Shown here piece by piece: positions 11,115 through 14,912 of a DNA stretch of 64,000 nt. The notes under the pieces were generated by a model. The model made no database searches, was not told the DNA's origin, and saw only the letters and a list, made by a program, of their open reading frames with translations. The DNA comes from Candidatus Gastranaerophilales bacterium. GTDB lineage: Bacteria; Cyanobacteriota; Vampirovibrionia; Gastranaerophilales; Gastranaerophilaceae. Position 1 is the stretch's first letter, and every line of letters begins with the position of its first letter. The DNA lies in the NCBI GenBank assembly GCA_944326525.1, contig CALVEG010000001.1:372001-436000 (forward strand). The letters run 5' to 3'. A program made the position numbers and the translations under genes.

Positions 11115-14100
11115 ATGAAAAAAGTCTGGGATTACCTGAGGGAATTGTTTTTAGAGGCTCGGAAATTATCCGCAGTAACATTAGGAGAGATTTTAATATC
11201 GATGGCAATAATAGGCGCATTGGTGCTAATATTAATGCCGATATTGCAAAGTGTAAAGCCTGATGAGAATGAGGCAATGCACAAGAAGACGACATTTGTG
11301 GTAGAGCGTGTCGTAAATGAGTTATCAAGCGATGATTACTTATATCCGAACAATGGAGAATACAGTTCATTAAGTAATACAGATAGTGTAACATATAATG
11401 GCGTAACCCATGGCGGATTAACGAAGTTTTGTACATTATTTGCAAGCCGAATAAACAAAAAGCCAGGCACGGAAGTAAATTGTACAATGGGTGCAGTAAG
11501 TGTAACGAGCGTAGAGGGCGTAGACTGGTATTTACCGATAAGTAATTTCCGTAATGGTTCAGAGACCTTGATGGTAGACGTAAACGGCGGTGAGGAACCG
11601 AATGAATTAGGTGAAGACCGATTTGAATACCAGATCCAACCGGGCTTTAAAGTACCGACAATAGAAGTAACGCATTATGAAAATGCAACAGAGCGTCCGG
11701 ATGATAAAGCAACGGTAGGTAATGTAGTAAAGCCTGATCATGAAGATAAAGCAGGCTTAGGCAAATATAATATAGCATGTACCGGAGATGGACATGCGAC
11801 GATATTAGGCGTAGGTTCAGGCAAAGTAAACGGGAACTATACCTTAGTAGCGATACCGAAGCCGGGATATAAATGTAACTGGTTTACTCGTCAGGTAACA
11901 GTAAAAGATGCAGATGTAACAGATTGTGCATTGAGTTGTTCACCGGATAGTGTAGTACCGGAATCAGATGGTGGTACAACCCCAGGCGGAGATGACGACG
12001 ATGACGACGATGACGACGATGACGAAGAACCGAAAAATCCAGTAAATGTCATAGTTAATTGGAGCGGCGAAAGCGGATGTAATTATATATGCGACAAGAA
12101 CGATTGTATGTATTACGAAGGTGAATTGTATAAAGTAACAATAACCGGAGATAATGGCAAGCACTTAGAAGCAGTTTGGTTACCAGGCTCAAGCGGAAGC
12201 GGCGTCATAATGGGTGAAGAAACCGTAATCGAGCGAGCAGAGTGTAAAAAAGTAGAGACACAGAAATGCTATGACATAAAACCGATAGTAGATAATCCAA
12301 ATCATTGTCCTTATCAGTTGCCCGCCGGAAACTGTCCTAACGAAGGCGAAGAAAACAAATATTTACCAAATCAGGATTATGGAATAGTCGTATCCCCCGA
12401 AGAAGGATACACATTTAATAATACTCCGGATAAAAGTACTTACACAGTAAAGCTGGGTAACAGTGATGCAAAACCTGATTTCAGAAACTTGTGTAAGAGT
12501 TCATCGGATAATGAAGCTACAATTGTTATAGATACTGAAGAGTTTAAGAGCTCTTCAGCTAACGGTGCAATACAAACTGTGAGTGCAATTACTAGCGTTA
12601 CAGTAACTAATGATGCATCTGTTTCTGGAGAGATGACTATACCCAAAAATGAATTTCATTATCCTCAACGCGGAACAGGGTATGATAGACCTACAGATCC
12701 AATAAAGGTTAAATTCTCAATAGGAAAACCTTCTGCAAAATATACAACTTATCATGCCGAGGTTACGAATACTCTAACGATGGATGAAAAGGGTTATTAT
12801 GGTTATTACCCTGTAACTTGTGATTTAAATATAAACGGAACAAAAGTTGCTTGTGATGCAAAAACAGCAACAGTAAATGATGTTAAATACACAATAATAT
12901 ATACTGGTCCGCCAATAGTGTCAGCCGGACCTCCAAGTGTTGATCCTTGTGCTTCGTCAAATAAATACAGCATAAAAATTACAGAAACATCTCCAAGTAA
13001 TCCTAGTATTGCAGGAGGTGGACCATGGTATGGTACTCGTCCAGGTGCGGATAGAGAAGGTAATTTGACTGTAAATGGCGGTACACCTTTTGAGATATAC
13101 CTGAGATATCCAGGCGGATATGATCCTGTAAATAATCCGGGTGGAAAATTTTGGTATGTAAAATCATTTACAGTAAATGGTCAAGAACAAAATACTGCAC
13201 ATGAGTATACATATAAAACAATTGTATGTGAGAATATAACTGCAAATATTGTATATGATGAAATGACAGATCCAGGACAGGTTGTCCATGTTTTGGTATA
13301 TTATTACTTAGATGGAAAGAAAGTATACGAAAAAGACTTTCAAATGAGAGAAAATCAGAACTTTGTATATTCAGCCCCATCTGAATATGATGGAGGAAAA
13401 TACTCAAGATATCAAATTGAAGATGGTCAAAATAATATACTTGATTCAGGAACAAGTCCTAATGTGAGATATGGATTAGGTTCAAGTGGTATAGTTGTAC
13501 GCTTTTACTATACTAAAGCACAGTCTGTAGGGAACTTAAATGTAACTGCAAATCTCCTACTCAAAGGAAAAGGTAAACTAGCTGGGACTAACAACTGGTC
13601 AGTTAAGGTGAAAAACAACAGTACAGGAAAAACCTATACCTTTGCTTATAATTGGTGGACAGATAAAATGAATCAAGTTGTAAAAGATTCTCATACGCAA
13701 TCAGTAGAGGTCGGTACATATACAGTTACGGAGTCAAACGCATTTTTGAATCCTACTGTAGAGGGATATCCAGATCCTATGGCACCAAGTAGTACAAAAT
13801 TATCTGCAGAAACCTTCACTGTTAAGGCAGGTCAGACTACAACACTTGACTATGATATAACATACGAGGCAAAAGAAACACCTCCATCAAAAAACATAAG
13901 TATAACAATGTATTGGACAGATGATTCCGGAAAATTTAACAATACAACAATGGGTACACATTGCGGTTCAAATGCTTCAGGTCGATATGAAAACCCAGAT
14001 GGTACATCGGGTAATTTTACCGATAATCCTGCAAATGGACAAAAAGCAACTGTAAAAGCTGGTGCTACATTATATTTAAATCAGTCTACAAGTGATTGTG

Positions 14101-14912
14101 ATGTAAGACCAACATCAACTGAAGGTACTTTATGTAAACCTAAAGGTATAACTATTGAAGGAAATAGTATAAGTGGTACTTATCAAGTATCAGGAAATAC
14201 ATCTGTAACAAGTCTGACAGGTTACTATCACTGGGATTGTTCGCAACAAGGCGGCGGAGATAAGCCTGGCGCTATTGAGGTTGAGATAAGATATGCAAAT
14301 CAGGTTGAAAGCGGTGTTGCAACAAGTGCAAATGTTACTTTATCAGGTAACGGAATATCTTCGCAAACAAAAAACTTGAGTGGTGAGTTTGGGGATTCAA
14401 TAACTTTCAGTAATTTGACAGCTGGAACATACTCATTGGCATTCTCTAATGCATCTCATGGAAGTGAATTATGCAAGTATAACCGCAAGGCAACACCAAA
14501 ATTAAGCACATCTTCACCAGTTGTAACCTCAGGTAATACAACAGATGTTACACTTACATACGATTGTCAAGATGGCAATAAGAGTGTATATGCTTATATA
14601 GGTGAAGGATACACAAGCTGCGTAACTGGAGCTACTTGCTATTGTAATGCTGGAGTGCCAATTAACGCATATCATAAAAGGGTTCATTTATCTCAGGCGG
14701 TAAGTAATCCCGTTACAGTAACTATTTATCATAGTTTCAAGTGTAATGGTCATAGTACGGGTACATATACTTCTGCATATATACCGGCAGGAAGTACCAG
14801 TGGTGATAATGGTGCGACGATTGTAGGTGCAGGTGGGTCTGATTTCTGTGGATGTACTTACCTAGGTGAAACTATTACTGAAGTCCGCGGAGACGATAGT
14901 GTCGGATTTTAG
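11115..14912 (+). CDS. Giant prepilin-like surface protein
   Basis: A 1265-residue protein. ATG at 11115 is chosen for its TAGGAG site 8 bases upstream. Residues 18-43 form a type III (prepilin) signal: basic leader, LSA then VTLGEILISMAIIGALV, with Glu 25 at the +5 position of a cut after Ala 20. A pilin-like stalk helix follows. The rest is extracellular-type: an 11-Asp run (293-303), many Cys (for example GCNYICDKNDC), a MucBP-like stretch (about 720-800), an SpaA/Cna-like beta-domain (about 805-915) and another beta-domain near 1050-1150. No sortase motif or C-terminal anchor. It is far larger than ordinary pilins (150-200 residues), so it may be a pilus-tip adhesin or a pseudopilin-anchored adhesin. 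Codon use changes around 12410: upstream the third base is strongly A (TTA, ATA, GTA, ACA), downstream it is mixed. It is a single-gene unit with a terminator. Confidence 0.8.
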   Translation: MKKVWDYLRELFLEARKLSAVTLGEILISMAIIGALVLILMPILQSVKPDENEAMHKKTTFVVERVVNELSSDDYLYPNNGEYSSLSNTDSVTYNGVTHGGLTKFCTLFASRINKKPGTEVNCTMGAVSVTSVEGVDWYLPISNFRNGSETLMVDVNGGEEPNELGEDRFEYQIQPGFKVPTIEVTHYENATERPDDKATVGNVVKPDHEDKAGLGKYNIACTGDGHATILGVGSGKVNGNYTLVAIPKPGYKCNWFTRQVTVKDADVTDCALSCSPDSVVPESDGGTTPGGDDDDDDDDDDDEEPKNPVNVIVNWSGESGCNYICDKNDCMYYEGELYKVTITGDNGKHLEAVWLPGSSGSGVIMGEETVIERAECKKVETQKCYDIKPIVDNPNHCPYQLPAGNCPNEGEENKYLPNQDYGIVVSPEEGYTFNNTPDKSTYTVKLGNSDAKPDFRNLCKSSSDNEATIVIDTEEFKSSSANGAIQTVSAITSVTVTNDASVSGEMTIPKNEFHYPQRGTGYDRPTDPIKVKFSIGKPSAKYTTYHAEVTNTLTMDEKGYYGYYPVTCDLNINGTKVACDAKTATVNDVKYTIIYTGPPIVSAGPPSVDPCASSNKYSIKITETSPSNPSIAGGGPWYGTRPGADREGNLTVNGGTPFEIYLRYPGGYDPVNNPGGKFWYVKSFTVNGQEQNTAHEYTYKTIVCENITANIVYDEMTDPGQVVHVLVYYYLDGKKVYEKDFQMRENQNFVYSAPSEYDGGKYSRYQIEDGQNNILDSGTSPNVRYGLGSSGIVVRFYYTKAQSVGNLNVTANLLLKGKGKLAGTNNWSVKVKNNSTGKTYTFAYNWWTDKMNQVVKDSHTQSVEVGTYTVTESNAFLNPTVEGYPDPMAPSSTKLSAETFTVKAGQTTTLDYDITYEAKETPPSKNISITMYWTDDSGKFNNTTMGTHCGSNASGRYENPDGTSGNFTDNPANGQKATVKAGATLYLNQSTSDCDVRPTSTEGTLCKPKGITIEGNSISGTYQVSGNTSVTSLTGYYHWDCSQQGGGDKPGAIEVEIRYANQVESGVATSANVTLSGNGISSQTKNLSGEFGDSITFSNLTAGTYSLAFSNASHGSELCKYNRKATPKLSTSSPVVTSGNTTDVTLTYDCQDGNKSVYAYIGEGYTSCVTGATCYCNAGVPINAYHKRVHLSQAVSNPVTVTIYHSFKCNGHSTGTYTSAYIPAGSTSGDNGATIVGAGGSDFCGCTYLGETITEVRGDDSVGF
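11991..12023 (+). repeat. 9-bp microsatellite coding an Asp run
   Basis: Three and two-thirds copies of GATGACGAC inside the prepilin-like gene encode 11 consecutive Asp. The repeat is in frame, so slippage would change the length of the run without breaking the protein. Confidence 0.9.

Follow-up and report, generated by a model that had tools for sequence, protein, structure and literature searches.

The PilV shufflon of IncI plasmids joins a constant N-terminal part of a minor pilin to alternative C-terminal tips, and in the pilE/pilS system of Neisseria sequence is copied non-reciprocally between pilin loci, from partial silent donors that lack a start. Modular type IV pilins are represented by Streptococcus sanguinis PilB, in which a small pilin module with a class III signal carries an extra C-terminal module, and such pilins are expected at the pilus tip (PMC8179133). 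The established precedent for poly-G switching is Neisseria pilC, with gonococcal tracts of G9-G15 (PMC5320596). The giant gene analysed here (locus A) and its twin (locus B) have the N-terminal pilin module, class III signal and C-terminal graft of PilB, but the extension is far larger (~1,100 residues), two chromosomal copies carry an identical module and stalk with different tails, and no known adhesion domain passes a Pfam cut-off. As with pilC1/pilC2, where a 5' G tract switches translation, two homologous pilus-associated genes stand at separate loci and a G tract (here G10-G13) is present; however PilC is not a pilin, the tract is here at one locus of the two, and the same type of leader stands ahead of many other prepilin genes in the genus. 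The constant N-terminal part with alternative C-terminal tips recalls the PilV shufflon, although no inverted-repeat segments or recombinase were seen at locus A and the alternative tips belong to two whole genes that lie far apart. The likeness to pilE/pilS would be that sequence passes non-reciprocally from one pilin locus to another, but both copies here are complete with their own starts, with no silent partial donors among the two found, and conversion would homogenise the conserved part rather than diversify an expressed gene.

Each of the three elements, modular pilins, phase variation by poly-G and concerted evolution, has been described before. We propose, with a probability of about 0.7, that the two loci encode paired giant pilins with a common base maintained by conversion, locus-specific tails, a poly-G switch at locus B and a variable tip. 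The pilin module and stalk would carry ~650 residues of locus-specific tail modules, and recurrent gene conversion would keep the mature pilin module and stalk alike at both loci while leaders and tails stay locus-specific, the tails being occasionally swapped or rebuilt from modules. Slippage in the poly-G tract would turn locus B on or off, yielding a pilus whose insertion module is constant and whose exposed tip, probably adhesive, is variable and phase-switched; that the tail lies at the tip and that it adheres are predictions from the modular-pilin precedent. The three elements together on giant pilins, recurring across species and with the border at the cleavage site, offer a natural test of how bacteria hold a filament-insertion module constant while the displayed part varies.

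The locus A gene and its N-terminal module

The window (the whole stretch analysed, 64,000 nucleotides) comprises bases 372001-436000 of contig C1 of genome G000 (1.95 Mb, 27 contigs), and was compared with the congeners G001, G002, G003, G005, G006, G008, G010, G011 and G013. The locus A gene (Table 1) is a single intact frame of 1265 codons. Its product begins with a class III prepilin signal, LSA^VTLGE, in which SA^VTLGEILISMAIIGALVLILMP provides the small residue, the Glu at +5 and the hydrophobic helix. In the family profile position 20 aligns to mature residue 1 of type IV pilins in the PDB (best pilin E=1.7e-4), consistent with cleavage after Ala20 and agreeing with the original prediction, which had placed the prepilin signal at Ala20/Val21 with Glu at +5.

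Table 1. Features of locus A and its flanks (window positions)
Feature	Coordinates	Strand	Basis or counterpart
Candidate giant modular pilin, locus A, 1265 aa	11115-14912	+	
Shine-Dalgarno-like AGGAGC ahead of the start codon	11102-11107	+	Read directly from sequence
Locus-A-specific prepilin leader, codons 1-20, MKKVWDYLRELFLEARKLSA	11115-11174	+	Mature N terminus set by profile alignment to solved pilins
Pilin module, mature residues Val21 to ~codon 175	11175-11639	+	201-aa prepilin homology, AF2, VIA-align
Block common to the second giant gene, 1780 bp	11168-12947	+	Counterpart G000:C1:35729-37508
Asp-rich linker, GAT/GAC repeat, within the shared block	11991-12026	+	Repeat search, translation
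Codon-usage changepoint, codons 388-470, best T3 estimate 12414	12279-12525	+	
Locus-specific tail, ~654 codons, reusable modules	12948-14912	+	No DNA match in the locus B tail
yebC/TACO1, conserved upstream neighbour, locus A marker in congeners	10054-10803	-	
glyS (glycyl-tRNA synthetase beta), conserved downstream neighbour, locus A marker in congeners	15109-17166	+	

Up to residue ~175 the protein is 40% identical (E=3.8e-30) to an ordinary 201-aa prepilin of the same genome (G000:C1:251.4-252.0 kb), which clears TIGR02532 (20.0 bits against a cut-off of 16.3), whereas the giant itself is below the cut-off for both TIGR02532 and PF07963. The AF2 model of the module (pLDDT 86) shows a long helix and β-strands. 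In VIA-align its first-ranked match is Thermus PilA5 (Z 6.7, below the tool's caution line of Z 8; rmsd 2.7 over 81 aligned residues), many other rows of that list being unrelated enzymes, and Foldseek with the same model gave no significant match. By the tool's own guidance such a Z is middling, so we base the pilin assignment on the combined sequence and structural evidence. A prepilin peptidase (PF01478) is encoded above cut-off in the genome, at G000:C1:301252-301629.

Beyond the pilin module, the Asp-rich linker and the other modules match no curated family above cut-off; the sole Pfam match on the giant is a sub-threshold one to BatD, and neither the locus A nor the locus B protein has a Pfam match to the PilY1 β-propeller. 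AF2 modelled residues 1-621 poorly (pLDDT 41). The locus A protein thus fits a modular pilin, with a mature module of ~155 residues and an extension of ~1,100.

The neighbours scanned around locus A were pnp, matrixins, tsaB, tsaE, a GGDEF gene, yebC, glyS, a nucleotidase, a PHP gene and some without a match, and no recombinase was among them. Three adjoining 174-aa proteins lie on the minus strand at 3916-5512, two of them matching matrixin (M10) metallopeptidases and the third similar in looks to this pair. At 8-1459 a 483-aa protein contains a long PADPKP/PVSDPKP repeat, over which frames are also open on the opposite strand and in another frame.

Shared block, paired loci and tails

The original prediction called for a search for other loci with the same 5' part, and one exists: the second giant gene, 347 kb away on the same chromosome, with a different leader and a different tail. 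The two copies of the block in Table 1 align without gaps and with two mismatches (99.9% identity), at 12920 and 12936, both in its last 28 bases, and the flanks differ on both sides. Identity starts at codon 18/19, beside the prepilin cleavage site, so that the mature proteins start alike and their leaders differ, MKKVWDYL... at locus A and MKHRQDKEFRGGGHPYNKLLS... at locus B, where the leader is ~45 codons long and the Shine-Dalgarno sequence is the same. Both copies are complete open reading frames with a Shine-Dalgarno sequence and a start.

The order of genes is yebC-A-glyS at locus A and nadK-B-ftsZ at locus B, with flagellar genes by nadK (nadK being our own reading), and both loci are recognisable by the same neighbours in congeners; the pair therefore predates the species splits. 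In the 96 bp that open the mature pilin, the two loci are 93-100% identical within each of seven genomes (G000 and six congeners), whereas between genomes identity is at most 84% (mean 62%); for yebC the identity of G000 to five congeners is 80-87%. The two copies were compared over their full length in G000 only, as most congener assemblies break within the block, and contig ends were used for the others. In five congeners (G005, G011, G002, G006 and G013) the paired 5' contigs stop shortly after entering the gene and their last 77-127 bp are identical, the second locus lying beside sepF in G006 and G013. Likewise in G005, G011 and G002 the glyS and ftsZ 3' contigs start with an exact shared prefix (77, 99 and 77 bp, respectively) and then diverge. 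These overlaps resemble assembly k-mers, as would be left by an unresolved two-copy repeat. A scan of the genome contigs gave only two loci of one congener. Loci that are syntenic and older than the species, yet homogeneous within each species, point to concerted evolution, for which recurrent gene conversion would be the simplest mechanism.

Two other accounts of the shared block have to be weighed against recurrent conversion. A one-off recent segmental duplication, in which the 5' block was copied once to the other locus in this strain only, would give near-identity and sharp ends such as are seen in G000; but several congeners share the neighbours and the 5' boundary, with each pair homogenised within its own genome, and as a single event would not recur in this way we consider it improbable. 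Still less probable is that the assembler copied an identical block into two G000 genes that truly differ. Two identical stretches of 1.75 kb are indeed hard for short reads, and the congener assemblies do break here, but those contig-end overlaps independently demand common sequence at both loci, and the clustering of the mismatches at the 3' end is what the edge of a conversion tract would leave. Recurrent gene conversion remains our preferred reading. Near-identical blocks in two copies cause repeated assembly breaks at these loci in the genus, so that metagenome surveys miss or shorten these genes.

Not every member of the genus has this arrangement, as the two giants of G001 are much less similar (56% identity over 302 aa) and no G10 tract was found in that genome. 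Between yebC and glyS in G001 (L040, G001:C23:91000-110000) lie flagellar, apparent surE and serine dehydratase genes, the segment having a giant pilin gene on either side, which would fit its having been moved there by recombination between giants.

The tails of the two G000 genes have no DNA match and only weak protein similarity (40% over 129 aa). The A tail is 82.5% identical over 126 aa to the locus A tail of G011, and most of it is unlike that of G005, whose locus A has a B-type tail; the G000 B tail is 94% identical to the G005 B tail and also 81% to the G005 A tail. In G001 and G003 one module of the G000 B tail is found again, in different positions. Matches that cross both loci and species indicate that tails have been swapped and rebuilt between loci over species time, as anticipated by the proposal that alignment with related genomes would reveal an exchanged 3' part. 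The notion of a 5' cassette joined to a variable 3' part therefore survives in that the 5' block is joined elsewhere to a different tail and the tails are mosaic, but the block ends at 12947 and not at the change in codon usage. For 'cassette exchange', gene conversion between two entire chromosomal genes is the better term: at locus A only imperfect inverted pairs of 16-26 nt were found, in no array, and a search for direct or inverted repeats forming a shufflon found none.

Codon usage along the locus A gene

The predicted in-frame change of codon usage near 12410 is real. Up to there the third position is A.39, C.17, G.18 and T.26, and beyond it A.37, C.10, G.11 and T.43, so T is much lower and G+C higher on the 5' side with A nearly constant. 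The T3 changepoint (z=6.27) falls at codon 433, base 12414, with a near-maximal range of codons 388-470, and that of GC3 (z=5.65) at codon 464, base 12507 (range codons 376-522). The GC3 shift has p=0.003 by amino-acid-preserving permutation, a value at its floor (1/301), and the likelihood ratio for full synonymous usage is 164.7 against a null maximum of 89.7. With the highest changepoint in 16 other window genes at z=3.63, the shift is the strongest of the 17 tested. The change was described as abrupt, which holds at the ~80-codon resolution of the changepoint. A-bias of the 5' part, also proposed, is evident within amino acids (ATA 18/21, GTA 32/41) but not overall; the shift is better put as avoidance of T-ending codons (ATT 1/21, GTT 2/41, ACT 1/28, GCT 1/18), together with a rise in G and C and an almost level A.

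In G000 the shift in codon use does not coincide with the end of the block, which lies ~530 bases further 3'. Codons 464-602 lie within the identical block and their codon use is already ordinary (T.45), which is at odds with a cassette border at the shift. In the sister species G005 the shared sequence ends at ~codon 464, base ~12505, near the shift. This match is suggestive but not general, as G002 differs.

A T-rich tail behind 5' and middle parts poor in T is also found in G001, G008 and G010, and partly in G002 and G003, indicating that the property is old in the genus. A sharp synonymous shift is what would be expected had the 5' part been acquired as a cassette by horizontal transfer from another lineage, but this recurrence makes recent transfer unlikely, and the A, C and T usage of the block resembles that of minus-strand genes in the same window and not that of recent foreign DNA. 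GC-biased gene conversion in a long-homogenised block would explain why GC3 is.35 in codons 19-463 and.18-.20 in the remainder of the gene, and why in G005 the shift lies close to the 3' end of the block; such a bias should however lower both A and T, of which only T drops, and in G002 the rise in T comes ~300 codons past the block end, so we regard this account as doubtful. Selection for translation is a possible contributor.

Leading- or lagging-strand placement was considered as a cause of the shift but is unsupported: window genes on the strand of locus A are T-rich at the third position, and plus-strand genes at locus B show no consistent difference.

Poly-G leaders in the genus

The locus B leader contains a G11 tract, in frame as assembled, and that of locus A has no poly-G tract; a phase switch would thus apply to the twin only. 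The full leader has the form Shine-Dalgarno sequence, ATG, G10-13, CRCCCG and GCTCC, with as many as 27 copies in one congener, and it precedes dozens of ordinary prepilin genes in the genus. This motif was present in 7/7 sampled members of the genus; the 139 genomes sampled from 40 other genera had no copy, and a reversed-pattern control gave zero.

The frame logic of these leaders would suit a switch. Of 38 distinct leaders that have 10-13 G and a recognisable prepilin helix, 37 keep the pilin frame open across the tract, while the start linked to the Shine-Dalgarno sequence is out of frame in 25/30 leaders as read from the assembly consensus, in which homopolymer lengths may be off by one. 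In one leader type of G011 a G12 tract puts the start out of frame and a G11 tract puts it in frame, and leaders L039 and L150 are in frame. As only some tract lengths place the Shine-Dalgarno-linked ATG in frame with the pilin, locus B is switchable in principle, and actual switching in cells would follow from the same logic. In G003, where a prepilin helix follows within 900 nt for 19 of the first 20 G10+ tracts, local start codons often come after the tract, making its control less clear there.

In 31/39 leaders at least 6 bases around the Shine-Dalgarno sequence are complementary to the GCTCC region, the search pattern having fixed GCTCC and left the Shine-Dalgarno half free. Such pairing predicts a hairpin that hides the Shine-Dalgarno sequence and has the poly-G tract in its loop. 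In L125, L130 and L142, for example, the Shine-Dalgarno sequence and GCTCC form a recurrent inverted repeat with poly-G in the loop, possibly a hairpin controlling translation.

The repertoire of poly-G prepilin genes suggests that pili are under strong selection in this lineage. We judge it about an even chance that a genus-wide poly-G prepilin switch, conversion of the base and shuffling of tail modules at the giant loci together amount to a combinatorial system of surface variation built on pilins, of a kind undescribed in the literature searched; no paper joining Gastranaerophilales and phase variation was found.

Tens of G10+ tracts are present in each of several AT-rich genomes, G003, G010, G011 and G013 among them (L124-L153, L166-L185), mostly upstream of prepilin genes where checked. 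In G000 the sole other G9+ tract returned by the search pattern (L155, G000:C4:46985-46998) likewise belongs to a prepilin leader (GFTLAEVLITIGILG), which is out of frame in the assembly. In G013 (L041, contig C15, 1131-7870) genes that by eye are pilB/pilC-like are closely followed by a giant pilin gene with a G13 leader, a position that would tie the giant family to the pilus machinery.
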